From assembly GCA_004794655.1 (NCBI GenBank), contig SMMW01000191.1, positions 62,001 to 126,000 of the forward strand: a stretch of 64,000 nucleotides of DNA, in the 5' to 3' direction. Numbering within the stretch: the stretch's first letter is position 1; each line of letters opens with the position of its first letter. The notes beneath the pieces were generated by a model. It had not been told where the DNA came from, did no database searches, and saw only the letters and a list, made by a program, of their open reading frames with translations. Of this stretch, positions 4,190 to 62,627 are shown one piece after another. The DNA is from Marisa cornuarietis (taxonomy: Eukaryota; Mollusca; Gastropoda; Architaenioglossa; Ampullariidae). The position numbers and the translations under genes are program-made.

Positions 4190-5029
4190 CTTAGAAAGAA
4201 GATCTTGATCAAAGATCTACATGATGGCGTAGGAATACAAAGTCTGTAGTTGATAGATCAAGCAATAGATCTGGGAACATGAACGACGGAGTTGGAAAAA
4301 AAAAAGACACAGTGAAACCAGAATAATTGTCCTGTACAACAGTGTCAGTCATAATTAAAATAACTACACTCTAGCAAAATATTGGAAGAAGAGGTTGGCG
4401 TGGTTTCCGTACATACTGAACGGTGAAGCTGACCAGTAATGGCTGACATGGCACCGCTCACAAACATTGGTGAAGAACAAAAGTCTGCGTGATTCCTACG
4501 GTCGACCACAAAACACAGCAGAAACTAAAGAAACTAAAACTCAGTCAGTGACGAAAATACTGGCACAAACTGGATATCAACTGCAGTTACTCACAACCAA
4601 GTATAACAAGAAATGTGGAGCACGAGAGCTGTCAAGCCGGTTAGGCTCAGATCTTCAACGTTTTACCGTATTTCTACGAAGGTTCAGTAAGAAAACGCTG
4701 ATGAAAATCTTGTTTTTAAAACGAAAATCATCTCCCAGTGTTAGCAAGGGAAACAATTCAACATTGCATCAATACCAAGTGCATGGTGTGTAACTGTGTT
4801 TTGAGATGACTGATGTTACAACAGTTTTCAAATCTACAAATGTATAGTACCAAACAAACATAGATTTTATTAGAATACACAATAGAGTTTGAATATTACT
4901 TAATAGTAAGCGTCTTTATTCTGTTCTATAGCTTACACCCTCTGTGGTTTCTCTCATTCAACAATCCCTTACTACGTCATACATTCTACGTCATACTCAC
5001 TACATCATAATCCTACGTCATACATCTTA
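4190..5029. other. Unassigned spacer
   Basis: An open frame of 108 codons (4467-4793, +) has no recognisable domain. Repeated TACGTCATAC-type motifs occur near 4973-5025. No gene called. Confidence 0.45.
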
Positions 5030-5213
5030 AGAAGGTTTCTGCAAATGTTTCCTATCATTTTAAAATGTTTGCAAAATGTTTCAGTTTTAAATGTTTTTTC
5101 GGTAAACGTTTCTAAAATGTTTCTAAAATGTTTAAAATCAAACTTTTACATTATTACAACTATGTTAGCGTTTTAAAAACGTTTATAAAATATTTCATTG
5201 CTATCTGGGTCAC
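5030..5213 (-). mobile_element. Reverse-oriented end of the AAACGTTT / CCCAGATAGC element
   Basis: Dense in AAATGTTT, AAACGTTT and TAAAATGTTT, ending in ATTGCTATCTGGG at 5201-5213. This is the reverse complement of the start motif at 1938. It abuts the mariner fossil on its right, so one element probably inserted into or truncated the other. Confidence 0.5.
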
Positions 5214-5720
5214 TCACAGCTGAAGTTTTACCACACAAGGAGTTTGAAGAGAGCGGAACACGTGGAAGTCTGAGGGTGCGAGGTGAGGTGAGTGTGGTGG
5301 GTGTGGTAACACATCTCATGCAGACTCCAATGACTGTTGACGGGTGATCAGACTTGTCTGTCTTCTCACGTTGATGTGAGTGAACACAACTCCTTTACGA
5401 TTAACGAGCGCTGGACGTTTGTGGATGATGGATTCGTTCAAAGTGTCCAACTGCCGACAGTCCACATTCCAACCGATTGTTTGCTGAATTGGTAGGTGCT
5501 GGAAAAATCCCCCCCCCTGAAATCTCAGCACAGTGAGAGCATAACTTGACTCTCTGCTGTCCATGTCACTTGAGATCAATCATCATGTCGGGACTGAGAC
5601 CGTTTGTAGACGACATTGTTGTACACAATGCCCTGCTCATCACCAGTTATCAGTCGCTTCAAAAAACGATCATTTTCCTCGCGTTTAATGAACATGTCGC
5701 AGATGTTTACACCCGCCGTC
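5214..5720 (-). pseudogene. Mariner-family (Tc1/mariner) transposase fossil
   Basis: On the minus strand from about 5720 the frame reads KREENDRFLKRLITGDEQ then VYNNVVYKRSQSR. This corresponds to the mariner hallmark ITGDEKW with the first catalytic Asp and YNN..RK.SW. After a stop and frame change, QLDTLNESIIHKRPALVNRK and TRQQSLE appear (5579-5316), then HPPHSPHLAPSDFHVFRSLQ (about 5302-5240), matching the HPPYSPDLAPSDFHLF motif. In the last motif the catalytic Asp position of SPD reads His. Stops, at least two frameshifts and the missing N-terminal DNA-binding half show a dead copy. No terminal inverted repeats were found. Confidence 0.85.
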
Positions 5721-6000
5721 AACTGAACTTCAATGTTTGTTTCAGAATGAAGCTGGAACTGTCAGCTGTCACGTGAGATGGAATAACATTGATGCAAATG
5801 ACTCTCGTACTTCCACAAATGAACTAGCGCCATCTATTGCAACAGTACATCATGACTTTCCCGACAAGCCAACATTAGGTCCCTCCCCCCAGTCAGCAAC
5901 ACGAAACAGCTGCAACAATCAGTTTTCTCTAATTTCTTCTTCACAATTTATGCTCCTGGAACTTCTCGATACCCCGTTACATGATGTGGTCGGCATGAAA
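5721..6000. other. Unassigned spacer
   Basis: Unique-looking sequence between the mariner fossil and a CA-rich array. No feature supported. Confidence 0.4.
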
Positions 6001-6385
6001 CGCTCACACCCACGTACACACCCACTATCCCTCCCACGTAGGCACCACGCACACACCCATGCACACACCCACACCCTCCCACGCACACCCACACACCTAT
6101 ACCCTCCCATGCACACACCTACACCCTCCCACTTACACACCCACGCACACACCTACACCCTCCCACGTACACACCCACGCACACACCTACACCCAGCCCT
6201 GCACATACCTACAACCTCCCATGCACACACCCACACCTTCCCACACTCACCCCATACACACTCCCACGCACTCCTCACGCTCACACCCGTGCACTCCCAC
6301 GTACTCCCCACGTACACACCAGCACACTTCCATCCACGTACTCACGCACACACCCAGGCACTCCCCCGCACTCCCCTGCTAGTCA
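6001..6385. repeat. Degenerate ACACCCACGC / CACCCTCCCACG array
   Basis: Low-complexity C/A-rich repeat of short CACACCCACGCACACACC and CTACACCCTCCCACG modules. Open frames through it encode His/Thr/Pro runs and are compositional artefacts. Confidence 0.85.
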
Positions 6386-10284: not shown

Positions 10285-12740
10285 ATTTGGTCACCAACTG
10301 CTATCATACACGTCCGCCATGTCACCAACAGCTCGTATCAATCACGTCCGCCATGTCGTCAGCAACTACTATCATACACGTCCGCCATGTCACCATCAAC
10401 TGATATCATACACGTCAGCCACTTCACCACAACTGATATCATACACGTCCGCCATGTCACCACCAACTGATATCATACACGTCCGCCATGTCACCACCAA
10501 CTGATATCATACACGTCCGCCATGTCGTCACCAACTGATATCATACACGTCCGCCATGTCGTCACCAACTGATATCATACACGTCCGACATGTCACCACA
10601 GCTGATATCATACACCTCCGCCATGTCGTCATCAACTGATATCATACACGCCCGCCATGTCACCACCAACTGATATCATACACGTCAGCCACTTCACCAC
10701 AACTGATATCATACACGTCCGCCATGTCACCACCAACTGATATCATACACGTCCGCCATGTCACCACCAACTGATATCATACACGTCCGCCATGTCGTCA
10801 CCAACTGATATCATACACGTCCGCCATGTCGTCACCGATATCATACACGTCCGCCATGTCACCACAACTGATATCATACACGTCCGCCATGTCGTCATCA
10901 ACTGATATCATACACGTCAGCCACTTCACCACAACTGATATCATACACGTCCGCCACGTCACCACCAAATGGTATCATACACGTCCGCCATGTCGTCACC
11001 AACTGATATCATACACGTCCGCCATGTCGTCACCAACTGATATCATACACGTCCGCCATGTCACCACCAACTAATGTCATACACGTCCGCCATGTCACAA
11101 CAACTGATATCATACACGTCCGCCATGTCGTCACCAACTGGTATCATACACGTCCGCCATGCCGTCACCAACTGGTATCATACACTCCGCCATGTCGTCA
11201 CCAGCTGATATCATACACGTCCGCCATGTCGTCACCAACTGGTATCATACACCTCCGCCATGTCGTCACCAACTGATATCATACACTCCGCCATGTCGTC
11301 ACCAGCTGATATCATACACGTCCGCCATGTCGTCACCAACTGGTATCATACACGTCCGCCATGTCGTCACCAACTGATATCATACACGTCCGCCATGTCG
11401 TCACCAACTGGCATCAATCACGTCCGCCATGTCGTCACCAACTGGTATCATACACGTCCGCCATGTCGTCACCAACTGGTATCATACACGTCCGCCATGT
11501 CGTCACCAACTGGTATCATACACGTCCGCCATGTTGTCACCAACTGGTATCATACACGTCCGCCATGTTGTCACCAACTGGTATCATACACTCCGCCATG
11601 TCGTCACCAACTAGTATCATACACGTCCGCCATGTCGTCACCAACTGGTATCATACACTCCGCCATGCCGTCACCAACTGGTATCATACACTCCGCCATG
11701 TCGTCACCAACTGGTATCATACACGTCCGCCATGTCGTCACCAACTGGTATCATACACTCCGCCATGCCGTCACCAACTGGTATCATACACTCCGCCATG
11801 TCGTCACCAACTGGTATCATACACGTCCGCCATGTCGTCACCAACTGATATCATACACGTCCGCCATGTCGTCACCAACTGGCATCAATCACGTCCGCCA
11901 TGTCGTCACCAACTGGTATCATACACGTCCGCCATGTCGTCACCAACTGGTATCATACACGTCCGCCATGTCGTCACCAACTGGTATCATACACGTCCGC
12001 CATGTTGTCACCAACTGGTATCATACACTCCGCCATGTCGTCACCAACTGGTATCATACACGTCCGCCATGTCGTCACCAACTGGTATCATACACTCCGC
12101 CATGCCGTCACCAACTGGTATCATACACTCCGCCATGTCGTCACCAACTGGTATCATACACGTCCGCCATGTCGTCACCAACTGGTATCATACACGTCCG
12201 CCATGTCGTCACCAACTGATATCATACACGTCCGCCATGCCGTCACCAACTGGTATCATACACGTCCGCCATGTCACCAACAGCTCGTATCAATCACGTC
12301 CGCCATGTCGTCAGCAACTACTATCATACACGTCCGCCATGTCACCATCAACTGATATCATACACGTCAGCCACTTCACCACAACTGATGTCATACACGT
12401 CCGCCATGTCACCAACAGCTCGTATCAATCACGTCCGCCATGTCGTCAGCAACTACTATCATACACGTCCGCCATGTCACCATCAACTGATATCATACAC
12501 GTCCGCCACTTCACCACAACTGATATCATACACGTCCGCCATGTCACCACCAACTGATATCATACACGTCCGCCATGTCACCACCAACTGATATCATACA
12601 CGTCCGCCATGTCGTCACCAACTGATATCATACACTCCGCCATGTCACCAACAACTGGTATCATACACGTCTGCCATGTCGTCACCAACTGGTATCATAC
12701 ACGTCCGCCATGTCGTCACCAACTGATATCATACTCCCCG
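10285..12740. repeat. Large 34-bp minisatellite (~2.4 kb)
   Basis: Around 70 copies of a 34-bp unit containing CGTCCGCCATGTCGTCACCA followed by ACTGGTATCATACA. Variants include CCACTTCACCACAACTGATA and a 32-bp form lacking GT of CGTCC. Distinctive variant blocks recur: GGCATCAATCACG near 11410 and 11881, and an AGCTCGTATCAATCACG block near 10331, 12281 and 12418. This indicates higher-order duplication. The unit has no stop in any forward frame, so frames up to 398 codons result. I do not call these genes. Confidence 0.95.
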
Positions 12741-17300: not shown

Positions 17301-20300
17301 AGTCGGCGATTGCCTCGACTTCAGTTTCCACTTGACTGATTCTTTTCGCTGGTGACTGATGGTGTGCATGGCTTCTGACAGTCGGCAAGTGGAGGTTGCT
17401 GTAAAATACTTCATCTTCTGAAAGTCTTTCTTCTATCTCGCTTCTCCAAATTCCTTTTAGCGACTGATTGTAATTTTAGACAAAATTTCTAAAATTGTCA
17501 CTCTTATCTTATAAAAAAAATGATGAAATTTTAAAAAATCACAAAATAAATAATTTCATTTCTTTCTGAAGAGATTTCAGCATCCATGTTTGTCTCCCCT
17601 TGTACTTGTCTATCCTACTTAGCGACTAAAATGTCGAGATAGCAGACGATGGTAATGCCCTCATTGTCATCTGACTTATTGTTAACCACATTCTTTCTCC
17701 AGTCTCGTAGTCTGGTAGTTCAGTCGACAGCCAAGCACAAGTCTGTAGGGTGGAGGCAGGTCCGGCCTGTGACTAGAAATCCTCTCCCCCTCACCCAGCG
17801 GCCCTACAGACACGGGTATGTCATTATCAGAGAAAGTAAAGGTGGCAAAGGAGACAATTGGACTCCGCCTTCAACATGCTGAGCTTTAGACAAAGTGAAC
17901 CACTTACACTGCTCTACCGCCACTAGTAGTCTTTACCTTTGTTCTTGATGTTCATCCTTACCTGCCATGCAGTTAGTGTTCGCCATGAACATGAACACAT
18001 TTGACTTTATTAGCCTCGACAAGGCGAGGGCGTGTTAACCCCCATACAACTGGCAGACGTGTGAGAAGAAGGCAACTAGTCATCAAACACTTCATCTCTG
18101 TTTAATGTTTTGCCACTACGACAAATCCCACAACTTTGTCTGCTTCCGACGAGAGAAAAGACAGAAAGAAAATGGAGAAAGAAAAAGAGAGAGTGTGATG
18201 GAGGTAGTGGTGGAGAGAAGGCTGTAAAACCCCGGATGTGTACAGGGTGGACGGCTGTCTGTCTACCGAGACTCACTCTCAGCCTTTTGCAAAGTCCTCC
18301 GCTGTTAGTCTCGGCGAGCTTGAACAGTGAATGTCAATGAACCGGAAGTAAAGTCGTCCAAAGCCTCGTTCTATAACTTAACTGAAAAAAATCGTCTGCA
18401 AGCAGTCGAGTAATACAAGTTCCTGGTAAAACTGTCTGGTCAGCAGACGACAGATGTTTCATCATCTTTGTGGGCGAAGTGCACTATGGGTAGGGTGGCG
18501 AGAGGAACAAAGGTGTTGATCAACTAACGGGCTCTGCAAGGACATAGAAACTATTTTTATACCTGACCCCAGCAAGACAACCTCTGGGCTCTTTGGCTTC
18601 CTCACCATATTGTTTCTCACTCACTCACTCACTCACTCACTCACTCACTCACTCACTCACTCACTCACTCACTCACTTGTAAATCTACATTCATATTTAC
18701 AAAGTGCAGTAACAACATTATGACATATATATATATATATATCTATTATATCGTCTTCACCTTTCACTGACATAATTTATCTCCATAACTAAGGCCACTG
18801 ACGCATCACGTGACCAACCTCTGTTTTGTAATTGTCACAGCTTCCCGCCTCGCCCCAACCCACCTCACAGCTACGTGCCATGTTTTCCTGGACTCAGGCC
18901 TCCAGTCATGACGTCACAGATCCTCCCGGAAGTAAACCCCCGGATGTTGTTGTGTCCACCCACAGCGCCTGTGCACACATTTTGCTTTTCACGTGCTAAC
19001 CTCGAGTTGGCGCTGTACGGCTACAGCAGCGCCACCTCGTCTCCATACAGGCGCCGCCATGCTATATCCGGTCTGCGTGTGGGTGAGATTGGTCAGGGTA
19101 TGTATATCCGGTCTGTGTGTGGGTGACATTAGCCAGGGTATGTATATCCGGTCTGTGTGTGGGAGACATTAGCCAGGGTATGTATATCCGGTCTGTGTGT
19201 GGGTGACATTAGCCAGGGTATGTATATCCGGTCTGTGTGTGGGAGACATTAGCCAGGGTATGTATATCCGGTCTGTGTGTGGGTGACATTAGCCAGGGTA
19301 TGTATATCCGGTCTGTGTGTGGGAGACATTAGCCAGGGTATGTATATCCGGTCTGTGTGTGGGTGACATTAGCCAGGGTATGTATATCCGGTCTGTGTGT
19401 GGGAGACATTAGCCAGGGTATGTATATCCGGTCTGTGTGTGGGTGACATTAGCCAGGGTATGTATATCCGGTCTGTGTGTGGGAGACATTAGCCAGGGTA
19501 TGTATATCCGGTCTGTGTGTGGGTGACATTAGCCAGGGTATGTATATCCGGTCTGTGTGTGGGAGACATTAGCCAGGGTATGTATATCCGGTCTGTGTGT
19601 GGGTGACATTAGCCAGGGTATGTATATCCGGTCTGTGTGTGGGTGACATTAGCCAGGGTATGTATATCCGGTCTGTGTGTGGGAGACATTAGCCAGGGTA
19701 TGTATATCCGGTCTGTGTGTGGGTGAGATTGGCCAGGGTATGTATTTCCGGTCTGTGTGTGGGTGAGATTGGCCAGGGTATGTATATCCGGTCTGTGTGT
19801 GGGAGACATTAGTCAGGGTATGTATATCCGGTCTGTGTGTGGGAGACATTAGCCAGGGTATGTATATCCGGTCTGTGTGTGGGTGAGATTGGCCAGGGTA
19901 TGTATATCCGGTCTGTGTGTGGGAGACATTAGCCAGGGTATGTATATCCGGTCTGTGTGTGGGTGAGATTGGTCAGGGTATGTATATCCGGTCTGTGTGT
20001 GGGAGACATTAGCCAGGGTATGTATATCCTGTCTGTGTGTGGGAGAGATTGGCCAGGGTATGTATATCCGGTCTGTGTGTGGGAGACATTAGCCAGGGTA
20101 TGTATATCTGGTCTGTGTGTGGGAGACATTAGTCAGGGTATGTATATCCGGTCTGTGTGTGGGAGACATTAGCCAGGGTATGTATATCCGGTCTGTGTGT
20201 GGGTGAGATTGGTCAGGGTATGTATATCCGGTCTGTGTGTGGGAGACATTAGCCAGGGTATGTATATCCTGTCTGTGTGTGGGAGAGATTGGCCAGGGTA

Positions 20301-23300
20301 TGTATATCTGGTCTGTGTGTGGGAGACATTAGCCAGGGTATGTATATCTGGTCTGTGTGTGGGAGACATTAGCCAGGGTATGTATATCCGGTCTGTGTGT
20401 GGGAGACATTAGCCAGGGTATGTATATCCGGTCTGTGTGTGGGAGACATTGCATATATTAAGTTTTAGAAAGATTCCGGACACCATGACCGGAGATACAG
20501 AGTAAATGTTTTCCTCTTGTAGGGTGGAGGGGAAGCAGAAGTGACCCACCCGCCCATGACCTCCCAGAAGGTGAGTCCTTTCTGAACTCGTCCTTCAACT
20601 TTATGTCAGTACCAACATGTTTTATAATAATAATAATAATAACGATGAGAACCAAGTTTACAAGGATAGAACTTAACGATGACAAAGAGGTTTTGTAGAG
20701 AATAATAACGATAATAATAACAATAACAACAACGTGTGAGTTGAAGAACACACACGCTCGTGCGGAAGGATAAACAATTGTACTGAGTACATGAAAGACA
20801 AACAGAAAACACAGGAGGAATCTGGTGACAAGATCTGAGAGTTTCATGAATCTCCTCAGGAAGACGAGCAGGTAAATAGCAAAAAAAAAAAGGGGGGGGA
20901 GGGAGGGTTAAAGACGGACTAGCGTTGTGTGGACTGTTGTCAGGAGTAACGAGTGCTGCTCGAGGAAGATGTGTAATAATTAGTCAGATTGGCTAGTTCA
21001 TTAATTGCAAGTCTTTGCTGTACTTACTGCTAATATCTGCCTGTCATTATATCCACACTCCAGGGAGTAGTGTGACAATACAAACAACTCGCACTTCAAG
21101 ACTTGGACACTGAGGGTAGCCTCCCTTTGGTCCACTTAATGTAGTGAAGATTGTCTAGACGAGAGAGCTCCTCGTCTTTCTTACACAGGATGAAGTGCGC
21201 CAAGTATTTTCTGACTTACACACAAACATTGCGCCAAGTCTGTCGACATTTTCTTCTTTTTCTTCGTTTTTTTTTTCTTCTTTACAGTCAGCAAAGTATA
21301 CATGTAGGCCAGCAGTCATGGTGGATGAGGCGATGTCTTTACACAGTGTGTGTGGGTGCGTGTGTGTGTGTGACTTGGTGGTGGGTGGGGGCCATGTCCC
21401 GCCTGTCTTGTGTCTGTAACTGAGCTTGCTTTTTCTTCTGTCACGTGGTGTAAAGAACTTACCATCGCCCAGACGAGCCTCTCGGGTCTCATCCACTTCG
21501 GGGTCTTCAACCGCAGTGACGTCATTAGGAGGGGAGTGAAGTACGGGCCCTTCAAAGGGAAGGTAGTCAACACAAGCGAGATAAAGACTTTCGACGACAA
21601 CAGCTACATGTGGGAGGTAACTCTTTACCCTGTACTCCTATATATTCGCCTCCTCAACCTGTTCTTCTCTCTCTCTCCTAACATTCTCGCAGTATAAAAA
21701 GGTAACAGTTATTCTCCCTTAACTTTTTTCCTTGGATTGTGGGAGGTGGGTGAGGTGGGTGAGGTGTGTGAAGTGTGCGAGGTGTGTGAAGTCTAAGGGA
21801 ACAGATTTTTCTCGGGAGTAGTTTTTTTTTAATGAGGGCGATGCCTAACTCGCCAACCCTCTATAGAGTCAGGTGGTCATTCTCGACAGCTTGTCACTAG
21901 GGGGAAAGTTCACTGCCCAACAAAGTATCCGATCGGCAGGGCAGGTGGTGGAACCACTTGTTTAGGAGGCAGTGGCTGAAATAATGGACACAATCACTGG
22001 TTTCACACAAACAGCTGGAGAAACTGCTCGCAGGAGAAGCAAGGCGGTTTCAGAGCCGGCAAGGACCACAGGTGAACAAAATGTTAAACACCTTCGGCTC
22101 TGTAAAGATCTGTACCATCACTTTCTTGACTTCAAGAAGGCTTTCAGCAGAGTCTGACACGTGATGTGGAAATTCAAGATGGAGGAGGGTTTAGTCCAAA
22201 CCATTCAGTCGCTATATGCCAGTTCTGGGAGCTCTGTGCTGCTCAGGAGAAAAGTGAGAGAGCGCTTACCTACGACAGTGAAGTCCGCCATGATGTCTGT
22301 GTGTCCGGTGCTCTTCAATATCTGTCTGGAAAGGACATTGCCAGAGACGCTGCATGAGCACCACTCACCCGTGTCCATCAGGGGAAGAAAGCCAAGTAAC
22401 CTTTGCTGACGACATCGATGTGATGTCACTGATGAGTTGCAGGATGAAAGATTCAGGCATTGGAAATAAAATGCTTCCCAAGAGTGGTCCAAATGTGAAT
22501 TTGTTCGCAATGCAGTCGCCGCCCTGGTCGGTCCTCAGGAAGTTGGTTTGATTCGGGTATGTCCCTCGGCATGTCACTCGGTATGTCCCTCGGCATGTCA
22601 CTCGGTATGTCCCTTGGTGTGACACTCGGCATGTCACTCGGTGTGACACTCGGTATGTCACTCGGCATGTCACTCGGTGTGACACTTGGCATGACACACT
22701 CCCCAAGACAGTCCTTCAGGGACCCAGAGTAGACCCGACTGACAGACTTCACTACTGCTGCAACTCCTGTCCCTCCAGCGACTGGACGCAGAAGAGAGAG
22801 AGAGACCTCTAACCACTCGGCTATTCGCTCCTCCAAAGTAAAGAAGTCTCTCTCTCTCTCTCTGTCTCTCTCTCTGTCTCTCTATCTCTCTTTGTCTATA
22901 TAGTTATATATATATATCGAAATAATGTATTTGACGATTCCTCTGCTTAATAATAATTGCTGTATGCTTTCCGTTTGTGTGATGTGCATATTTCAAACCC
23001 TGTCGGTTGTTGTTGTCGCCCTCTATCCACGCCATCTTGTGTTGGTGTTTTCATGGCCTATGTTGCTTTTCTCGTCGATCGTTGTTGTCGAATGATGACG
23101 ACGATGATAAGCAGACCTGTTGACAACAAAGCACTAAACATCTCTCAATCCTCTTTCCCCCCCCCCGAAGGTGTTTGTGGACGGCCGCCTCAGCCACTTC
23201 ATCGATGGACGCGGGGCGTCGGGAAACTGGATGTCGTACGTCAACTGCGCGCGCAGCCCGCGGGAGCAGAACCTGGTGGTGGTGCAGGAGGGCGAGCAGT

Positions 23301-25237
23301 TGTTCTACGAGGTGCTGCACGACATCCCCCCGGGGGGCGAGCTGCTGGTGTGGTACGGCAGCCAGTACCTGCAGTTTATGGGCATCCCCGTCACGGTGCG
23401 CACCACCACCACACACGGCGCCGGCGACCGAGGCGAACGCGAAAGTGAGTGCAGCTCACCCTTCTTGCCGCACGCACTCCGCACACATGCACCCACGCAC
23501 GCACGCACGTTCAGCTGATGTCAGACCAAGTCGTCTTGACTGACTCGTCATGCACACAGGCACTCACATCATTCACCTGTCTAGATGAGCTGACTCTACT
23601 CTGGCCAGGTGCACTCTGGGTAAAGTGGGTGTGAAACACAAAGTACAAGAGCGTTGAGTGATAATCACGTGACACGACGACTACACGATGATGATAAACG
23701 AATTATTATAGACTAAACCCTTCGGAATTTGTGTTCACAGTCATACTTGTTCTACAAGGCAGTGAGAAAGTCAAGTCAACTGACAAGAAAGTAAATTGAC
23801 ATGAATAAATAAACTGGACTGATGGGGTAGTGCAATAGTGGCGGTGATGGTCACCTCAGGCTGGTCGTCGTTTTCTTGAATCGAAATCATGAAACATTTA
23901 TGATGATGATGATGAGGAGGAGGAGGAGGAGAAAGTTTTATTTAGCATTTTTCGGGAAAAGACCTGTTCATGGGTAGCTTACTAAACATGTTTGTGGGTG
24001 TTCAGGTTTGCGTGCGTGTGTGTGTGTGTGTGTGCGTGAGAGAGTCTGCAGGTTGCGGGGGATTGCGTGGTGACTGTGTTTTTGTCGTGTGTCAGATTAA
24101 GGAAGGGGCGCGGAGGTGCACGGGCCCTGCTGCCATTCTCCCTGTTAACTGTCTTCTGCGGCTTGCTTGATCCACCACAAAATCCCCGCCATTCGCCCAG
24201 CCGCTTGCTGCCTGTCCTTCTGCCTTTTATATTTGCCTGACGGTGCCGGTGCGTAAGGGACAGCCTTATGTTTTATTGTCCCCAATCCCCAGCCTCGTAA
24301 ACTCTAGCCTCACCATCGCCAACACCACCGTCGTCCGGAAGACGTTCGTGGCGAGGGTATTGAGATCAGTTTCCAAATAGGACCCCGGGGACCCCCCGCA
24401 AGACCCTCTAGCGGGATGCCCGGCATCTGATCTGGCCGCGCATAAAACTTGCTGTTTTCGTTAGTTGCCTCAGACAGGTCTTTTTGCCGCACCCAACTCT
24501 GACTTCTACGCATGCGCAAGAGAGGCTCTTGTCGAGGGTTTTATTGGAGGATTTCATCATTAGTCTTCGGATATCAGATTTTCCAGGGGAAGGGTTCATG
24601 ATGGGGAAGGTTTTTTTTCCCCCCATCGGATCTCTTTCTGATTCAGCCTTAACTAAGCCCACAGAGACTTGGCTAGAAAAATGATGTTGCTAGCTTTCCT
24701 TGCCGAAAAAAAAGTTAGTTCTTGCCGGCAAACTTTGTCGACATGGTCTTAATTAATTCGTTTCTACAACCCCGACCTCATTTCCTGCTGTACTTTCGAG
24801 AGAAAGAAATTAAGCAGTATGGTTCTTTTCCATTACAACGACACATTAATAAACTAAAAGAATGTCATATATTTTCTTCCCACTCAGAACAGTTGAGTTT
24901 CTTTAGTAAGAAGATAATTGAAAATCGGTTTGACGAATCGGTTTCTGCTGAGGCTCTTTAAAGGAAAAGGCAACTGAAGGCCAAGTGGGGTTTAAATGGT
25001 GGAGACAGATTTCTTAATCATTTCTACTCCATGTTAATGGCTAACCCCAAAAATCACTTACTTACACTCGTCTTTAGACACGGGTCTGGAGGAGAGACAA
25101 GAAGGCTGCCATCTTGTGCTGTGCAGTGAATTATTTGATTACACACCCACACAGACACTAAGGGGCTCGAAGAAGGAAAGATTGAGTGATACAGAAAATT
25201 ACTTTTTAATATATTAACTGTTATAAATTGAGCACTG

Positions 25238-30484: not shown

Positions 30485-32812
30485 AACATTGAATGAATGT
30501 AGTTTTCACCACAAGTCAACACGCAGTACATAATCACCACAAGTCAACTTGCAGTACATAATCACCACAAGTCAACTTGTAGTACATAATCCCAAGTCAA
30601 CATGCAGTACATAATCACCACAAGTCAACTTGCAGTACATAATCACCACAAGTCAACTTGCAGTACATAATCACCACAAGTCAACTTGCAGTACATAATC
30701 ACCACACGTCAACTTGTAGTACATAATCACAAGTCAACTTGCAGTACATAATCACCACAAGTCAACTTGCAGTACATAATTACCACAAGTCAACTTGCAG
30801 TACATAATCACCACAAGTCAACTTCCAGTACATAATCACAAGTCAACTTGTAGTACATAATCACAAGTCAACTTGCAGTACATAATCACCACAAGTCAAC
30901 AATCAGTACATAATCACCACAAGTCAACTTGTAGTACATAATCACAAGTCAACATGCAGTACATAATCACAAGTCAACTTGCAGTACATAATCACAAGTC
31001 AATTTGCAGTACATAATTACCACAAGTCAACTTGCAGTACATAATCACCATAAGTCAACTTGCAGTACATAATCACCACAAGTATATTGCAGTACATAAT
31101 CACCACAAGTCAACTTGTAGTACATAATCACAAGTCAACATGCAGTACATAATCACAAGTCAACATGCAGTACATAATAACTACAAGTCAACTTGTAGTA
31201 CATAATCACCACAAGTCAACATGCAGTACATAACCACCACAAGTCAACTTGCAGTACATAATCACCACAAGTCAACAATCAGTACATAATTACGACAAGT
31301 CAACTTGCAGTACATAATCACCACAAGTCAACATGCAGTACATAATCACCACAAGTCAACTTGCAGTACATAATTACCACAAGTCAACTTGCAGTACATA
31401 ATCACCACAAGTCAACTTGTAGTACATAATCACAAGTCAACTTGCAGTACATAATCACCAAAAGTCAACTTGCAGTACATAATCACCACAAGTCAACTTG
31501 TAGTACATAATCACCACAAGTCAACTTGTAGTACATAATCACAAGTCAACTTGCAGTACATAATCACAAGTCGACTTGTAGTACATAATCACAAGTCAAC
31601 TTGCAGTACATAATCACCACAAGTCAACTTGTAGTACATAATCACAAGTCAACTTGCAGTACATAATCACAAGTCAACTTGTAGTACATAATCACCACAA
31701 GTCAACTTGCAGTACATAATCACAAGTCAACTTGTAGTACATAATCACAAGTCAACTTGCAGTACATAATCACAAGTCAACTTGTAGTACATAATCACTA
31801 CAAGTCAACTTGCAGTACATAATCACAAGTCAACTTGTAGTACATAATCACTACAAGTCAACTTGCAGTACATAATCACAAGTTAACTTGTAGTACATAA
31901 TCACCACAAGTCAACTTCCAGTACATAATCACAAGTCAACTTGTAGTACATAATCACAAGTCAACTTGCAGTACATAATCACCACAAGTCAACAATCAGT
32001 ACATAATCACCACAAGTCAACTTGTAGTACATAATCACCACAAGTCAACTTGTAGTACATAATCACAAGTCAACTTGCAGTACATAATCACAAATCGACT
32101 TGTAGTACATAATCACAAGTCAACTTGTTGTACATAATCACAAGTCAACTTGTAGAACATAATCACCACAAGTCAGTACATAATCACCACAAGTCAGTAC
32201 ATAATCACAAGTCAACTTGTAGTACATAATCACTACAAGTCAACTTGCAGTACATAATCACCACAAGTTAACTTGCAGTACATAATCACCACAAGTCAGT
32301 ACATAATCACCACAAGTCAACTTGCAGTACATAATCACCACAAGTCAACTTGTAGTACATAATCACCACAAGTCAACTAGTAGTACATAATCACAAGTCA
32401 ACTTGCAGTACATAATCACCACAAGTCAACTTGCAGTACATAATCACCACAAGTCAACTTGTAGTACATAATCACAAGTCAACTTGCAGTACATTATCAC
32501 CACAAGTCAACTTGCAGTACATAATCACCACAAGTCAACTTGTAGTACATAATCACCACAAGTCAACTTGTAGTACATAATCACAAGTCAACTTGCAGTA
32601 CATAATCACAAGTCGACTTGTAGTACATAATCACCACAAGTCAACTTGCAGTACATAATCACCACAAGTCAACTTGCAGTACATAATCACAAGTCAACTT
32701 GCAGTACATAATCACTAGTCAACTTGTAGTACATAATCTACAAGTCAGCACATAATCACCACAAGTCAGTACATAATCACCACAAGTCAACTTGCAGTAC
32801 ATAAAATTGTTT
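30485..32812. repeat. Large 28/25-bp minisatellite (~2.3 kb)
   Basis: Around 85 copies of AAGTCAACTTGCAGTACATA plus ATCACCAC (28 bp). Many units lack three bases (ATCAC, 25 bp) and a few are deleted to 15-18 bp (AAGTCAGTACATAATCACC). TTGCAG/TTGTAG alternate. The long and short units are interspersed rather than blocked. Confidence 0.95.
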
Positions 32813-33279: not shown

Positions 33280-34128
33280 ACACTATATTACGTGTTCACA
33301 CTATCTCACATTATCACACTATATTACATGCTCACACAATGTCATACTGTAACACTATATTACCTGTTCACACTATCTTACATTATCACACTATATTACC
33401 TGTTCACACTATGTCACATTGTCACACTATATTACCTATTCACACTATGTCATACTGTAACACTATATTACCTGTTCACACTATGACACATTGTCACACT
33501 ATATTACCTATTCACACTATGTCGTACTGTAACACTATATTACCTGTTCACACTATGACACATTGTCACACTATATTACCTATTCACACTATGTCATACT
33601 GTAACACTATATTACCTGTTCACACTATGACACATTGTCACACTATATTACCTATTCACACTATGTCATACTGTAACACTATATTACCTGTTCACACTAT
33701 GACACATTGTCACACTATATTACCTATTCACACTATGTCATACTGTAACACTATATTACCTGTTCACACTATGTGACATTGCCACACTATATTACCTGTT
33801 CACACTATGTCACATTGTCACTCTATATATTACCTGTTCACACTATGTGACACTGTCACACTATATTACCTGTTCACACTGTGTGACATTGTCACACTAT
33901 ATTACCTGTTCACACTATGTGACACTGTCACACAATATTACCTGTTCACACTGTGTGACATTGTCACAGTATATTACCTGTTTACACTATGTGACATTGT
34001 CACAGTATATTACCTGTTTACACTATGTGACATTGTCACACTATATTACCTGTTCACACTATGTGACATTGTCACACTATATATTACCTGTTCACACTAT
34101 GTCACACTATATTACGTGTTCACATCAC
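33280..34128. repeat. 36-bp minisatellite with 72-bp higher-order unit
   Basis: About 23 copies of CACTATATTACCTGTTCACA plus CTATGTCACATTGTCA. In the first half, CTGTT/CTATT and GACACATTG/GTCATACTG variants alternate, giving a 72-bp dimer. Forward open frames here are repeat artefacts. Confidence 0.94.
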
Positions 34129-35699: not shown

Positions 35700-36615
35700 A
35701 CTCCTCAAGCTGTACCCCAGTCATGTACATCTCTGTTGTACCTATTGCTATTCACCTCAAGCTGTACCTCAGTCATGTACATCTCTGCTGTACCTCAGTC
35801 ATGTACATCTCTGTTGTACCTATTGCTATTCACCTCAAGCTGTACCTCAGTCATGTGCATCTCTGCTGTACCTATTGCTATTCACCTCAAGCTGTACCTC
35901 AGTCATGTACATCTCTGCTATACCTCAGTCATGTACATCTCTGCTGTACCTCAGTCATGTCCATCTCTACTGTACCCCAGTCATGTAGTCTCTGCTGTAC
36001 CTCAGTCATGTACATCTCTGCTGTACCTCAGTCATGTACATCTCTACTGTACCCCAGTCATGTAGTCTCTGCTGTACCTCAGTCATGTACATCTCTGCTG
36101 TACCTCAGTCATGTACATCTCTACTGTACCTCAGTCATGTCCATCTCTACTGTACCCCAGTCATGTAGTCTCTGCTGTACCTCAGTCATGTACATCTCTG
36201 CTGTACCTCAGTCATGTACATCTCTACTGTACCTCAGTCATGTAGTCTCTGCTGTACCTCAGTCATGTACATCTCTGCTGTACCTCAGTCATGTACATCT
36301 CTGCTGTACCTATTGCTATTCACCTCAAGCTGTACCTCAGTCATGTACATCTCTACTGTACCTCAGTCATGTAGTCTCTGCTGTACCTCAGTCATGTACA
36401 TCTCTGCTATACCTCAGTCATGTACATCTCTACTGTACCTCAGTCATGTAGTCTCTACTGTACCTCAGTCATGTCCATCTCTACTGTACCTCAGTCATGT
36501 ACATCTCTACTGTACCTCAGTCATGTACATCTCTGCTATACCTCAGTCATGTATATCTCTGCTGTACCTCTTGGTATTCACCTCAAACTGTACCTCAGTC
36601 ATGTACATCTCTGCT
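35700..36615. repeat. 26-bp minisatellite with longer variant units
   Basis: About 30 copies of TGTACCTCAGTCATGTACAT plus CTCTGC. Some units carry an insert of about 20 bp (TATTGCTATTCACCTCAAGC) that is itself repeated several times. All three forward frames remain open; not called coding. Confidence 0.94.
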
Positions 36616-36795
36616 GTGGCGGCCCGTTACCGTTAACTATAACTTTGCTCTTGTCAACGGGCGGTCGGGTAGCACTGGCTGTCCTGGGTTCAGATCTCAT
36701 CTCGGGCACCTGTTCTTTCTCTGCACGTGGCACCTGTTTACCGGGCCGGCGGCGTCCCCGTGATATACATTAGTTGCTGGCTCGACCTGTATTCT
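36616..36795 (+). mobile_element. tRNA-derived SINE, family with TAGTTGCTGGC tail
   Basis: A tRNA-like head includes GGGTTCAGATCTCATCTCGG (B box, 36688-36708). The tail CACCTGTTTACCGGGCCGGC ... GTGATATACATTAGTTGCTG follows. The same tail recurs at 38957-39185 (minus), 39890-40010 (plus) and 61672-61725 (plus). The head resembles that of the SINE at 2790-2990, but the tail differs. Confidence 0.65.
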
Positions 36796-52755: not shown

Positions 52756-52826
52756 ACAGGGACTCGGCTTATAGGGCTTACAGGGCTTACAGGAGAGACA
52801 GAGACAAAAGTCCAACTGATGTCAGG

Positions 52827-53265
52827 TATGGGGCGCCAAGAGGGGAATTTTCTCAAATTTGCTATTTCTAGCTATACATTGCAATGTATAATTATAGAAT
52901 GCAATGTATAGCTATACATTGAAATATATAATTATACATTGCAATGTATAGCTAGAGAGAGAAAAACTCGGTAAAAACCGAAGTGTTTCATTTATATTAT
53001 ACTCAGAAGTTGCTATCCAATTCATTTTATATATACCTTTCAATTCTTTAGCTATAGAATGCATTCTAGCTATACATGTGAAATCTATATTTATACATTG
53101 CATTCTATAACTTCTGACTTGCAATGTATACGGAACGAGGCTGGCTCATTTGCATATGGGAAAAGAAGGTCAAAGACCAACCAATCAGTGCGCTCGTAGC
53201 AATGGCCTTCGTTCTTGTTTTTACGCGCTCAAGAGAGAGTCGTCTGCTGTGTGTTTTTACGCGCA
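52827..53265. repeat. Left terminal inverted repeat
   Basis: Matches 58498-58977 in reverse, with indels. The outer ~280 bp is built of palindromic modules (GCTATACATTGCAATGTATA, ATAATTATA). The inner part holds ATTTGCATAT (octamer-like), ACCAACCAATCAG (CCAAT box) and GCGCTCAAGAGAGAGTCGTC. The transposase ATG lies 55 bp inside it, so the TIR probably carries the promoter. Confidence 0.88.
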
Positions 53266-53319
53266 AAATAGAAGAACAACTGGTCTCTTACGCATCGGCT
53301 TTCCTGTTGTGCTTGCATT

Positions 53320-55437
53320 ATGGCTGAACGAGAACTTCGTGACTCTGATGAGGTACGTTTGTTTATTTTAATTTGAGGTACATGTGAATACTGACCACTA
53401 TTTAGTAAGAGCATCCATTGTAACTATAGTTACGTGGGGAAAAATCAAACGCACCTGGTGTTCGCAGTGGAGGCATGGAACTATATGTATGGTTAAAGCG
53501 CTGTAAAATTAACAAACAGAAATGCCATTTGAATGAGTAAAATCGAAATCTACAACAGCGAATAGCTACGAATGGTTAACTTACAGAGAGAAAGAAAGAC
53601 AGCGATCAGGAGATAGAGTCTTGAAAATATGAAGAGTATTAATTAGAGTGTCACGCCCCTATGGCTGAACAGAATACCGGAAACAGAGAGAAAGTATATA
53701 TACGAGATCCATATCATTTACCATGGAACCGATATGTATTTTCGGCATGTAACAGCGTTTTGCCAACTGCTGTTTTACACTTGGTTTGCACTTTAAAGTG
53801 TTTGTTATTTACAAAAGATGTAACAAAAGTTTTTTGAATTCTATAATGAATACATTTACACAGAGTTCAACAACACGAAAAAGAAAAGATGTGGACCTCG
53901 AGTATGCATCAGAACTTTTGTTTGATCTCCATCTACCAGTGAAGAGGCTGGCCAGCATGGTTGGAGTTTCCCATAAAACTCTTTATAAAAGATTTGAAAA
54001 AGAAGGTAAGATAAATTAATAAATTGCTTTGGACAGGTTTTCATTGCTTAAATGTTTTCGTGTGCATAAATTGCTTAGAAAGATTTTAGAAAAAGATGCC
54101 ATATGGCCACATATTGGCCATAAAGCAAATCTGCAGTTAGACTCTGCTACTCTTGCCTGTTGTATTTTCATATTTTACAATACATCCTACGGTCTGCCAA
54201 CTATAGATGCTAAACAATGTTAAATTTTTACTACAGTAATACAATAACTTTGTCAAAGTAATGTATAATCTGTTAATAACCCCACAAACCAAGTTTAGGA
54301 CATAATATTGTAGCTGATATTTTTAAAAGCATCTTTAGCAAAAATTTTAAGACTAGTTTTAAAATGATCTTTACAATAAAGTTTTGGTGTTGTGTGCCTG
54401 ACTTTTTTGACGTGTGCATATTATTTTTGTTAACAGGACTGGATATTCGAAGTCACAGGTATACAGACATTAATGATGAAGACCTGGAAAAAGAATTAAA
54501 AGACATAAAAGACCAGTTTCCAAATGCAGGAGAAGTCTACATAACTGGCCACTTAAGAAGCAGGGGAATATATATACAGAGGAGAAGAATCCAAGAGATG
54601 TTGCATCAAGTTGATCCGAAAGGTTGTGTTGAGCGCCTGACACATACAGTATGCAGACGTGTGTACTCTGTGCCATGTCCCAATTTTTTATGGCACATTG
54701 ATGGTGCCCATAAACTAATCATGTGGAAATTTGTTGTGCATGCAGCAATAGATGGATTTTCCAGAACAATTTTATATCTACAATGTTCCAACAGCAATAA
54801 TTCAATTGTGGTCACCAGATTGTTTTTAAGTGCCACGGAGCAGTATGGGTGGCCTATACGTGTCAGGACTGACTATGGAGGTGAGAATGTTGGGGTATGG
54901 AATGAGATGGCGTCTCAAAGAGGTAATAGGTCTGTGATTGCAGGATCATCTGTACATAATAATCGTGTTATACGTCTCCACAGAGATGTCAATCTGCAGG
55001 TAGGTCAAACATTTAAAAGTATTTTTTTGCAAATGGAACAGGATGGTATTTTAGATAGAGCTAATGAGACAGACCTTTTTTGTTTACACTATGTTTTTAA
55101 GCCACGAATAAATCAGACATTAGCAGAATTCAGAAGTGCACACAATCATCACTCAATTTTTACAGAAGGCAACCACACACCCATCCAGCTATTTCATTTA
55201 AATCAACACCTAATTTGTCAATATGAGAATGATACCAGTTTCCATAACCCTGGTATATCCATAGATGAACTACAACGCTGCGAGCTTTCACAGGTCAGTG
55301 TGTTGCCTATTTCATGCCCACTGTCCTTTGAAGACTTTCAAACTTTAAAAAGAACGGTTGACCCACTGTCAAGTGATCATCCAGTTACTGTATATAAGAA
55401 AGTTGCTGAGTTTGTACTTCAGCACTTAAACCAATAA
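53320..55437 (+). CDS. Integrase-like (rve/DDE) transposase, three exons
   Basis: Exons 53320-53352 (MAERELRDSDE), 53864-54005 and 54437-55437 are joined in phases 0 and 1, giving 391 residues. Exon 2 encodes a basic stretch (TRKRKDVD) and a helix-turn-helix-like KRLASMVGVSHKTLYKRFEK. Exon 3 has a second DNA-binding-like region (LRSRGIYIQRRRIQEML, ~98-114). The integrase core has WHIDGAHKL (Asp147), HAAIDGFSR and RVRTDYGGENV (Asp204). The family motif HNQRIERLWRDV is represented by VHNNRVIRLHRDV, so the expected catalytic Glu is Ile237. A C-terminal TLAEFRSAHNHHS block follows. It would cut and join element ends. The full open frame contrasts with the apparent loss of one catalytic acid. Confidence 0.88.
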
Positions 55438-56500
55438 TTTATTATAGCATTTTCAGTCTAGATTTAAGCAAATGGTGGGAGGTTGGGGGAGGTAAATATG
55501 TCAAAACTGAAAGTTGTTCTCTGTAGTACATCTGGATAATCTATAATTACATGCCTTGGTACTTTTCTTTCACAGTGTGTGTGTATATATATGTATATAT
55601 ATTCAGATAACTCATATGTACATGTCTTGCTTCTTTTCTTTACCATGTATAATGATAAAAAGTGGTCCTGCAAGGCATTTTCAGACCTTTAACCTCTGCC
55701 AGTCGAATTCTTCTGTATTATTTACTATGATTAATATCACAGTAATTACTCATTGATTGATGTGCAACATCATCATAAATCACAATCCTTGACTGGTACC
55801 AGGTGATGATTGACTTATGTTTGTCTGCTGGTTCTGATCATTGAAAATAACTAGATGGATGCAGTGGTTGACGAGATTTGTCACTCAGGCCTGTCCTGAG
55901 CAGTGGTGAACAGGTCTTGTGTGGAACCACCCGTTCTTTTATGTCCTAAGCCAGTTCTTCCTCTGTTCAATATGGGGTCCCCCTGATGTGTATTAACATA
56001 GAGTGTCATGCCAGGTAACATGGCCAAACATAACAAATGGGCTGTTAAATTGTCATTATTATGTTCTTGATTTTGTTACTTTTAATGCACTTACATGTTT
56101 GAAAAAATATGCATCTCTTTCTCATTGATGAACACAGTCAGTTTTGAATGTATCTTAACTTTGTCAACTTTTATCCATTTTATTTTAAATCACTAATATA
56201 GTTCTTAGGTACATTGTGTCATGTAAGAATCCAAAGCTTCATGTACATAAGTGTTGTTTCATTTGAAATGTTGACACATTTTAAATTATTGATACACCCG
56301 GTATTATTTGCTGGTGCATTGTCACATATTTTAATATATCATGCTCTGTAATTTTCTGATGTTGATTTTATTTTGTTACTGTTTAAAAATTACTTTTTTG
56401 TCCCCACACTTCATTATATAAGCTTCTTTTATTCAATGTGATACTGAACTATATAAGACGATGGTGACCATGATCATTACAAATAAAATAGTTTAATGCA
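55438..56500 (+). other. Transposase 3' UTR with AATAAA
   Basis: AT-rich, no further conserved coding. AATAAA at about 56482-56487 (TTACAAATAAAATAG) is the first good polyadenylation signal after the transposase stop. Confidence 0.5.
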
Positions 56501-56689
56501 AGAAACAACTTCTTCTTTGTTTCCCTCAAATATCTACTCTGTCTTGGCTGTTCTACAGTCTTTGCAGATCTCAATTGTTCACTATCTAATCAAAATTTTT
56601 AAAAAGATAATGTTTGTTTCTGGGGTGCCTTTTTTAGTCTATTGTACACACACACACACACACATATCAATGGTCTATGGCACAGAGTA

Positions 56690-56745
56690 GAGGAAACTGG
56701 AGTACCCAGAGAAAACCACCGACAGTCAGCCCTGTAAGCAGGTGT
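56690..56745 (-). mobile_element. SINE core fragment inside the transposon
   Basis: GAGGAAACTGGAGTACCCAG, AGAAAACCACCG and CAGCCCTGTAAGCAGGTGTC match the core of the SINE at 2790-2990 in the same orientation. Confidence 0.6.
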
Positions 56746-57699
56746 CATATTTAGAGATAGGTACGTTGGAGCCAAAATACAAACACAACATTCATGGAAT
56801 TCTCACTGGCTTGGTTACGGGCGCCACCAATCCCAAAATGTGGCCTACTTCATGTTGTGAACTTTTAAAAGTAATAAGGAGTAATATTAAAGCTCCGGTG
56901 ATTGTGGAGAATACAAAACAACTTGGCAGATTGGCAGACACACACATCAATAGTTGTTGACGCTGTGAAAATGGAACAGTTGGTTTATTTGACGGAAAAG
57001 TGTTTCAAGGTTGACTTTGCATTATGAGGGATAAGAAAAGTAAAATTGATTGCTAAGTTACTATGAGATTATTATTAGACATCCACATTCCATTGTATGG
57101 AATCATCAAAGTGTTGTAAAAAATACATGACAAATTATTTACAGGATCAGGATCTACTAAAACAAATTTCAGCAAAATATGTTTGGTCACATGGTCACAT
57201 GGTCCCAAAGGAGGCATAAGCACTAAAGAATATATTGTATTAATGCATGAACAATTAAAATCAAGACTTTCAGAATTATCAGATTTAAAAATATTACAAA
57301 GTACTACAAAAAATTCATCTGAGATGAATAATGGAGACATTGTACACTGGGATCTAGCCTCTATGTTTGCATAGTAAGCATCCACAACTTCTTGTACTCA
57401 TAACCATTCAACGCCACCTATAGGGTTACTCCTCTTGGTTTCCCATAAATATTGATCATTACATGTTGTCTATAACAACCGATCTTTTGACGGCTTCCAC
57501 CATAATTTCTGAAAAAGTCTCTCCCAGTGGAAGCTGCCGAGGTAAATCAATCCTGATAGCCATCTTCATTAAAAGTGATGACTGGACTAAGACCTGCTCG
57601 ATGGAGTCCTCCAGGAGGGATTGTTCGATATATATAAACGTCTAAAAGACTGGTCTGGGCTATCGAGGTGAGACGTTCTCTGGACACTTAACGCTGGCG
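56746..57699. other. Transposon interior with small unassigned open frames
   Basis: Two short + strand frames (56742-56960, 72 codons; 57183-57374, 63 codons) have ordinary amino-acid composition, for example KEYIVLMHEQLKSRLSELSD. I recognise no domain and they may be remnants of a second element gene or captured DNA. Confidence 0.35.
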
Positions 57700-57942
57700 G
57701 TCACTTTAGTCTAGACTTTCTTTTGACGGTCCTTGGGTTTTCTTTAAAGGTAAAGGTCATCCAACATCCTTTTTCAGGTCGTTGGGGAGTGAGGTGTTAG
57801 AGACCTTACCTTCCCCAACCCTCTAAGGAGTCAGGTACCCATTCCCGTCAGCTGGGGGAAGTTTGCTGCGCTTATCGGGAATTGAACTAACGCGCTCTCG
57901 GTTCGGATGCCAGCGCTCTAACCACTCGGCCATCCGCTTTTC
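57700..57942 (-). mobile_element. tRNA-derived SINE (Leu/Ser-like head) inside the transposon
   Basis: On the minus strand the element starts GCGGATGGCCGAGTGGTTAG (A box) and has a B box GTTCAATTCCC about 50 bp later. A body follows with CAAACTTCCCCCAGCTGACG, CTGACTCCTTAGAGGGTTGG and AAGGTAAGGTCTCTAACACC. A head of the type TGGCCGAGTGGTTA is characteristic of class II tRNAs (Leu/Ser). It is not a functional tRNA: no cloverleaf 3' half could be completed. Confidence 0.8.
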
Positions 57943-58299
57943 TTTAGCTTTGTTCATCCCCACCACAATATCATAAGTCAACCATCACTCCCTCTCATAC
58001 ACTCGTAGCATGCACTTAGCACGAACGCCTACTAAAGAACTCCCACATCCTCCCCACAGAAAGAAACATTCCCGCACCTTCAAGTTGACCATAACGCAAT
58101 ACTATTAACATACATGTATGTCAACATGTCAAATGCTGACATGTTGTGGAAGAAAATCTTCTTCGTCCAAAACGTCTCTAACCGCTTCGCGGAAGCCAGA
58201 AACGGTCTCCATCAGGGCCCGAACTGTTCCAATCACATTATTGGTTGACATTTTTTTTTGGGGGGGGGAGGGGCGATTGCTTTAAGTCTAAGACGACAC

Positions 58300-58497
58300 A
58301 GCAGACGACTCTCTCTTGAGCGCGTAAATACACACAGCAGACGACTCTCTTGAGCGCGTAAATACACACAGCAGACGACTCTCTCTTGAGTGTGTAAATA
58401 CACACAGCAGACGACTCTCTCTTGAGTGTGTAAATACACACAGCAGACGACTCTCTCTTGAGCGCGTAAATACACACAGCAGACGACTCTCTCTTGA
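58300..58497. repeat. 36-bp minisatellite on the inner edge of the right TIR
   Basis: Five to six units of ACACACAGCAGACGACTCTC plus TCTTGAGCGCGTAAAT, one with a 2-bp deletion and two with TGTG for CGCG. The left TIR carries only one and a partial unit at the equivalent position. Confidence 0.9.
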
Positions 58498-58977
58498 GCG
58501 CGTAAATACACACAGCAGACGACTCTCTCTTGAGCGCGTAAAAACAAGAACGAAGGCCATTGCTACGAGCGCACTGATTGGTTGGTCTTTGACCTTCTTT
58601 TCCCATATGCAAATGAGCCAGCCTCGTTCCGTATACATTGCAAGTCAGAAGTTATAGAATGCAATGTATAAATATAGATTTCACATGTATAGCTAGAATG
58701 CATTCTATAGCTAAAGAATTGAAAGGTATATATAAAATGAATTGGATAGCAACTTCTGAGTATAATATAAATGAAACACTTCGGTTTTTACCGAGTTTTC
58801 TCTCTCTAGCTATACATTGCGATCTATAAGTATATAAAATGCAATGTATAGCTATACATTGCATTCTATAATTATACATTATACATGTATAGCTATACAT
58901 TGCATTCTATAATTATACATTGCAATGTATAGCTAGAAATAGCAAATTTGAGAAAATTCCCCTCTTGGCGCCCCATA
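58498..58977. repeat. Right terminal inverted repeat
   Basis: Reverse-complement partner of 52827-53265. It contains additional copies of the palindromic module GCTATACATTGCATTCTATA compared with the left arm, so it is longer. It ends CCCCATA next to the GTCAGG duplication. Confidence 0.88.
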
Positions 58978-59146
58978 GTCAGGCGACATCTCTAGTTCAG
59001 CTGTGTGAAAGTATAACAACCCCGGGTGTTGTGTAAACCAGGGACTTGGGGTGTGAATATAGTTGGTTGACTGGTTTCTTTGACATGAAAGCACTTCCAA
59101 CAATAGGGACGATGTCGCACTTTAAAAGAGAAGGAGTGATGAAGGG

Positions 59147-59212
59147 GGAGAGGGGGGAACCTGAGTACCCGTAGAAAAACTCCGAGGGCCAGAATTGCGA
59201 ACAGGTGTCACA
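59147..59212 (-). mobile_element. SINE core fragment
   Basis: GGGGAACCTGAGTACCCGTA, GAAAAACTCCGAGGGCCAG and GCGAACAGGTGTCACA correspond to the core of the SINE family at 2790-2990. Confidence 0.55.
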
Positions 59213-59614: not shown

Positions 59615-60735
59615 CCTTGTTTACAGTCTGTTAGTGTCTATATACAGTCTAACAGTGTCTACAGTCTGTCAGTGTCTACAGTCTGTGTCTACAGTCTATC
59701 ATTGTGTCTATCAGTGTGTACAGTCTGTGTATACAGTCTATCAGTGTGTACAGTCTGTGTATACAGTCTATCAGTGTCTACAGTCTATCTATCAGTGTGT
59801 ACAGTCTGTATACAGTCTATCAGTGTCTACAGTCTATCAGTGTGTACAGTCTGTATACAGTCTATCAGTGTGTCTATCAGTGTGTACAGTCTGTGTATAC
59901 AGTCTATCAGTGTCTACAGTCTGTGTATACAGTCTATCAGTGTCTACAGTCTATCAGTGTGTACAGTCTGTGTATACAGTCTATCAGTGTGTCTATCAGT
60001 GTGTACAGTCTGTGTCTGTGTATACAGTCTATCAGTGTGTACAGTCTATCTATCAGTGTGTACAGTCTGTATGCAGTCTATCAGTGTATACAGTCTATCA
60101 GTGTGTACAGTCTGTGTCTACAGTCTATCAGTGTGTACAGTCTGTATACAGTCTATCAGTGTGTCTATCAGTGTGTACAGTCTGTGTATACAGTCTATCA
60201 GTGTCTACAGTCTGTGTATACAGTCTATCAGTGTCTACAGTCTATCAGTGTGTACAGTCTGTGTATACAGTCTATCACTGTGTCTATCAGTGTGTACAAT
60301 CTGTGTCTGTGTATACACTCTATCAGTGTGTACAGTCTATCTATCAGTGTGTACAGTCTGTATACAGTCTATCAGTGTATACAGTCTATCAGTGTGTACA
60401 GTCTGTGTATACAGTCTATCAGTGTGTCTATCAGTGTGTACAGTCTGTGTATACAATCTATCAGTGTCTACAGTCTATCAGTGTGTCTATCAGTGTATAC
60501 AGTATATCAGTGTGTACAGTCTGTGTATACAGTCTATCAGTGTGTCTATCAGTGTGTACAGTCTATCAGTGTCTACAGTCTATCAGTGTCTATCAGTGTG
60601 TACAGTCTGTGTATACAGTCTATCAGTGTCTACAGTCTATCAGTGTGTACAGTCTGTGTATACAGTCTATCAGTGTGTACAGTCTGTGTCTACAGTCTGT
60701 CAGTAAATACAGTCTGTCAGTGTCTACAGTCGTGC
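59615..60735. repeat. TACAGTCTATCAGTGTG minisatellite (~1.1 kb)
   Basis: Mosaic of TACAGTCTATCAGTGTG, TACAGTCTGTGTA and TCTATCAGTGTG modules, giving composite units of about 30-42 bp with larger duplicated blocks. For example the block near 59800-60090 recurs near 60140-60390. Three overlapping forward frames of more than 340 codons result; none is called coding. Confidence 0.94.
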
Positions 60736-61726: not shown

Positions 61727-62204
61727 CTCCCCCTCCCTTTCCCTTTAAATCAGTTGGACTGAGAGGGACCGACTAACTGACATAAAACACTTGGCAAGGA
61801 GTCGTCTGAAATAACGGGACTCAATCTTAGTCGAAATAGGATCTTTTTTTCTTTTTTCAGGCGCTGGCTTTTGTTAGCCTCAGTGCAATATGGCGAGAAT
61901 GACTGCACTCAGAAAGAAGGCCATAGAGTTGAGACAGGTAACAGGGTGCAGTAGCTGGTCAGGTGCTGCGTTTGACACTGTCAACATTTAGACTTTGATC
62001 ACACATGATGTGGCTGGTCTGTCATTTGTGAATATGACTGCTGGTCACAGGATATTCAACCACTCCCATGAAGTAGCAGAGCTACAAAGTCTGTAATTAT
62101 TAGAATCGTATGTATACAGCCCCTTACCCTCCCCGACTTGGAGCCATAGTGGAGTCCCGGGGTAAGATGAGAAAATCCACAGCAAGTGTCTTGACTCCGT
62201 CGTT

Positions 62205-62627
62205 ATGAGGCGGTGTCCAGACCCCCGGATACTTCTGTCCCCTCAGGCTGTGGTTATTTTACTTCTATCCCATGGGGATGTAGTTATGCGCCACATTTTC
62301 AACATCAGATGGCCCGAGAAGATCTCCAATGCATACCTGTGGGAGAGAGCCAACCAGAAACCTGCCAGCCAAGACATCAAGAAGCGAAAGTGGGGCTGGA
62401 TCGGTCACACCCTGCGAAAGCCGGCCAACAATCTAACACGACAAGCTCTGGACTGGAACCCACAGGGGAGGCGCAGGGTTGGGAGACCCAGACAGACGTG
62501 GAGAAGATCGGTCCACAGTGGAGGCAGCTGGAATGACATGGACCAACTGAGGAGGGAGGCCCACAACCGGGTTCGATGGCGTGGTGTAGCTGCGGCCCTA
62601 TGCTCCACTGGGGGCGAAAAGGAATAA
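62205..62627 (+). pseudogene. C-terminal end of a LINE ORF2
   Basis: An open frame contains HIFNIRWPEKISNAYLWERA, KKRKWGWIGHTLRKPANNLT, RQALDWNPQGRRRVGRPRQT and WRRSVHS. This is the conserved tail of endonuclease-reverse-transcriptase proteins of animal LINEs (W.WIGH.LR....TR.AL.W.PQG.R..GRP..TWRR). It ends with TAA at 62625-62627, followed by AAGAAGAAGAAATAAGG, which looks like the A-rich 3' tail. The RT core is missing, so this is a 5'-truncated copy. Confidence 0.85.

Follow-up and report, generated by a model that had tools for sequence, protein, structure and literature searches.

How a DNA transposon whose ends look competent and whose own enzyme appears to be dead came to be inserted is the question raised by an IS3EU-like element in the 64-kb window analysed here (the whole 64,000-nucleotide stretch of contig SMMW01000191.1, with position 1 at its first letter). 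The element occupies 52827-58977 and is 6,151 bp long as read directly from the sequence, and both its ends and its target site duplication (TSD) were determined from this one copy. Its sequence points to a full-length IS3EU copy with a probably inactive transposase that was, most likely, moved in trans.

The element opens with TATGGGG and closes with CCCCATA, its left and right end sequences being TATGGGGCGCC and GGCGCCCCATA, and it is enclosed by two copies of GTCAGG. Because the bases preceding these copies differ (T on the left, A on the right), as do the bases following them, the TSD is exactly 6 bp. A first-pass annotation had proposed a complete element with intact ends at 52821..58983, citing its termini, the GTCAGG duplication and long inverted repeats, and all of these are found there. 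The same annotation had named the IS3EU superfamily, which is supported by comparison with published descriptions: IS3EU/GingerRoot elements have TA..TA ends and a TSD of usually 6 bp (PMC10045372), rust-fungus IS3EU ends follow the pattern TAYGG..CCRTA (PMC12730594), and the present element has ends of these types, a 6-bp TSD and a single integrase-core transposase. Assigned by these descriptions, it appears to be a new copy of an already known group, for which Repbase held 45 families, 17 of them autonomous, in May 2022 (PMC10045372). The described fungal TET+ IS3EU elements share the TAYGG..CCRTA ends, repeats longer than 30 bp and the 6-bp TSD, but carry TET/JBP and alpha-kinase genes (PMC12730594), whereas a second gene was undetected here among the 6 of 24 right-half open reading frames (ORFs) scanned. 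Ginger1 and Ginger2 fit poorly with their published TSDs of 4 bp and 4-5 bp, and IS481EU disagrees with both the ends and the 6-bp TSD of the element, being described with TNT..AYA ends in T. vaginalis families and TSDs of about 4, 15 or 25 bp (PMC10045372).

The transposase is recovered as a 391-amino acid (aa) frame without an internal stop from three predicted exons, which would be joined across GT..AG introns. Its product matches Pfam rva_4 (E=8.8e-66). IS3EU/GingerRoot transposases are characterised by an N-terminal DNA-binding region and by the lack of an HHCC motif ahead of the core; in the Pfam scan of the present protein no zinc-finger family matched at E<=1, and an HTH_23 match (E=0.029) fell below the family cut-off. 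The AlphaFold prediction, built like the PDB profile from exon 3 plus 49 of the 120 homologs described below, yields a confident core model with a predicted integrase-type fold. A complete DDE triad marks working transposases, and decayed copies lose it yet stay in their family. Aligned with 120 of the 274 homologs found, which is the set behind all residue counts given here, the query reads D-56-D-32-I, with isoleucine (Ile237) where the third acid would stand; spacings of 56 and 34 occur in 87 of the 121 rows and spacings of 56 and 32 in 11, the query included. As the PDB-profile alignment reaches the first two acids only, the third-acid position is taken from conservation within the family and from the model. 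The ATA codon is two base changes away from any Glu codon, and the only homologs without Glu are P0005 (G), P0008 (V) and P0036 (K). Three further near-invariant positions (111, 178 and 183) are also changed, bringing the total to 4 of 56, and together the four altered codons require a minimum of six base changes. Of the 120 homologs, 6 match or exceed the query's fraction of changed positions and 8 have at least four changes, against a median of 1. Since this glutamate belongs to the catalytic triad of DDE enzymes (PMC10045372; also general knowledge), the encoded D,D,I protein is probably catalytically inactive, the loss of Glu being the weightiest sign and the other three changes supporting only. 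The full spliced frame reported earlier thus stands as an open 391-codon frame, but the enzyme that it specifies is probably not intact. In the open-licence literature, no paper was found on IS3EU elements with mutated catalytic residues.

The query remains embedded among relatives that keep the catalytic residue. Integrase-core proteins P0002 (Anneissia japonica), P0007 (Lineus longissimus), P0024 (Littorina saxatilis) and P0001 belong like the query to the rva_4 family and are 48-66% identical to it, but retain the Glu where the query has Ile. A tree built from the query and these 120 homologs pairs it with P0001 (support 0.884) and places both in a six-member group (support 0.945), to which P0024 of the gastropod Littorina also belongs; the query still groups with E-bearing relatives despite Ile237. 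Four of its five nearest relatives have no near-invariant changes. The query's terminal branch measures 0.22, ranking 31 of 121, and a relative-rate comparison with P0001, using P0006 as the outgroup, gave 36 against 19 changes (chi2 5.25, significant). The description of the element as a mollusc-type copy is unproven: the named relatives among the 120 comprise a crinoid, a nemertean, a gastropod, a coral and fishes at 43-55% identity, and the placement near P0024 would fit a mollusc host without demonstrating one.

Evidence on timing comes from the inverted repeats. Their ungapped arms are 93 nt (100%) and 310 nt (99%), a gapped local alignment gives 439 matches and 6 mismatches plus gaps, and chance matching of these sequences is excluded. 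Two ungapped core blocks of 93 and 301 columns contain 0 and 1 mismatch, or 1 in 394 columns, and in the gapped alignment the arms are unequal in internal repeat units near 52920-52962, which leaves an internal length difference. With repeat divergence as the clock, 0.2 to 1.1 changes, depending on the columns counted, would be expected since insertion across the near-invariant codons (168 nt), and the probability of at least six such changes would be 1e-7 to 1e-3. Thus either the insertion is younger than the changes, or later homogenisation has made the repeats look young. If the changes are older and the protein was dead, the copy must have been moved by the transposase of another copy, and among readings with pre-insertion changes a dead protein moved in trans is favoured over changes shared by an active lineage. 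The arms also carry palindromes related to TATACATTGCAATGTATA, with 11 matches at up to 3 mismatches in the window against 0.08 expected, all 11 of them inside the two arms, and these are, by inference, candidate binding sites.

Under the proposed mechanism, a transposase supplied in trans by another copy would bind the long, palindrome-rich inverted repeats, cut at the TA/TA ends and join these ends to the target at strand positions offset by 6 bp, which would produce the GTCAGG duplication. We infer the loss of activity, the trans-mobilisation and the binding to the repeats alike. A precedent is offered by Styx of Zymoseptoria, an IS3EU-related element with a 6-bp TSD, of which a copy carrying a non-functional integrase is reported to have produced a fresh insertion, leading its authors to infer that intact copies can mobilise degenerate ones (PMC10853768). 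Styx differs from the present element in its 36-bp repeats, its length of about 7.9 kb, its four coding sequences and its fungal host (PMC10853768). If trans-mobilisation is correct here, the precedent of IS3EU ends moved by another copy's enzyme would extend from one fungal relative to an animal genome.

Several points weigh against this account. The age argument would fail if homogenisation of the repeats followed the insertion. The changes could also be ancient ones that a whole lineage on a long branch has in common, and should active copies carry I237 as well, the enzyme may not need the customary Glu. P0005, P0008 and P0036 also lack Glu, P0008 representing a cluster of 98 sequences, while P0003, another of the five nearest relatives, keeps it despite five near-invariant changes. 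The relative-rate difference is significant with only one of four outgroups (chi2 0.53 with P0004, 0.24 with P0024 and 0.21 with P0003), and no second copy of the family was seen in the viral and genome contigs scanned.

The rival that survives best, though unlikely, is an old inert insertion, in which the element inserted itself, its transposase decayed in place and gene conversion kept the arms alike. Inverted repeats are not renewed at each jump, and repeat identity is no insertion clock for DNA transposons. The two nearly identical core blocks would suit such conversion, yet homogenisation was not full, the 36-bp array and the internal repeat units still setting the arms apart, and the TSD is still perfect and the frame free of stops. 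Much less credible is an autonomous, active element whose frame functions although Ile occupies the third catalytic position: the open frame, near-perfect repeats, perfect TSD and absence of Glu from three homologs agree with it, but retention of this catalytic acid (PMC10045372) by 117 of 120 homologs and the three further near-invariant changes speak against it. It is just as improbable that the D,D,I protein was kept as a brake or regulator, folding and binding the repeats as a non-catalytic subunit or poison of an integrase-like tetramer, which would have a full-length copy encode a regulator of its own family; the open frame and confident core model fit, as does the description of retroviral integrase tetramers acting on DNA through inner subunits only (PMC10045372), but lost constraint accounts equally for the same data from one copy.

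Mobilisation in trans, the preferred reading, also bears on how the copy should be used. The first-pass annotation had recommended it as a good reference element, and with every boundary fixed it does aid annotation of the sparsely described IS3EU group, but the missing Glu cautions against treating it as a reference for active or autonomous elements. Features are listed in Table 1.

Table 1. Features in and around the IS3EU-like element, in positions of the window.
Feature	Position	Strand	Basis or remark
TSD GTCAGG, left copy	52821..52826		Sequence comparison of both flanks
Left terminal inverted repeat, about 437 nt	52827..53263	+	With palindromes related to TATACATTGCAATGTATA
Transposase exon 1	53320..53352	+	Predicted
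Transposase exon 2, helix-turn-helix-like region	53864..54005	+	Predicted
Transposase exon 3, integrase core and stop codon	54437..55437	+	Predicted; Pfam; structure model
Asp147 codon, first acid	54700..54702	+	D in 118/120 homologs
Asp204 codon, second acid	54871..54873	+	D in 119/120 homologs
Ile237 codon ATA, at third-acid position	54970..54972	+	E in 117/120 homologs
Right interior	55438..58295		No second gene detected
A-box/B-box pair (tRNA-type), SINE-like head inside element	57879..57932	-	Motif search; 4/100 shuffles also matched
36-bp tandem array, 7.0 copies	58296..58546		Overlaps inner edge of right repeat
Right terminal inverted repeat, about 479 nt	58499..58977	-	Arm alignment
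TSD GTCAGG, right copy	58978..58983		Sequence comparison of both flanks

A second gene in the right half was rejected. The longest stop-free frame of the right interior, 114 aa, was equalled or exceeded in 34 of 200 first-order Markov randomisations, the 6 scanned ORFs (of 24 of at least 45 aa) had no Pfam match, and a homolog search with 57123-57371 returned one candidate and none at E<=0.1. The 36-bp array was likewise rejected as a gene, being open in several frames because its unit contains no stops. At the head resembling a short interspersed nuclear element (SINE), neither ARAGORN nor Rfam reported a tRNA.

Scans for copies elsewhere gave 16 pattern matches and no relatives in viral contigs with the protein alignment, and no matches there with the terminal 21-mer, whereas genome contigs gave 26 pattern matches and four loci, each of which lies in a metagenome-assembled genome (MAG) of a sponge symbiont and is read as sponge host DNA. 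On one sponge-symbiont MAG contig, probably sponge DNA (L003:3337-6111), an IS3EU-like transposase and an ORF on the minus strand (4996-6111) converge, and this ORF encodes a HECT ubiquitin-ligase domain (Pfam E=1.5e-6). No ends matching those of the present element were found in this locus, so the HECT ORF may be a mere neighbour, and a comparison with its protein found no HECT remnant in the right half of our element (best E 1.1). In fungal TET+ IS3EU, the alpha-kinase gene is described as oriented opposite to the transposase (PMC12730594); no paper joining IS3EU and HECT was found in the open-licence literature.

Elsewhere in the window, an exon with a PRDM2-type PR/SET domain lies on the plus strand at 23150-23440 (Pfam PRDM2_PR E=1.8e-27), indicating an animal host gene. 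The frame at 62166-62627, which has no Pfam match, we take by eye to resemble the C-terminal end of a polyprotein from a non-LTR (long terminal repeat) retrotransposon. The motif GGAGTACCCRGAGAAAACC, which may belong to a SINE or to another kind of dispersed repeat, recurs at 2847-2865, 56699-56717 and 59162-59180 with 0, 0 and 3 mismatches (0.02 expected). Long minisatellite arrays are numerous, including those at 10290-12734, 19063-20450, 30509-32804, 33280-34106, 35703-36617 and 59641-60731.
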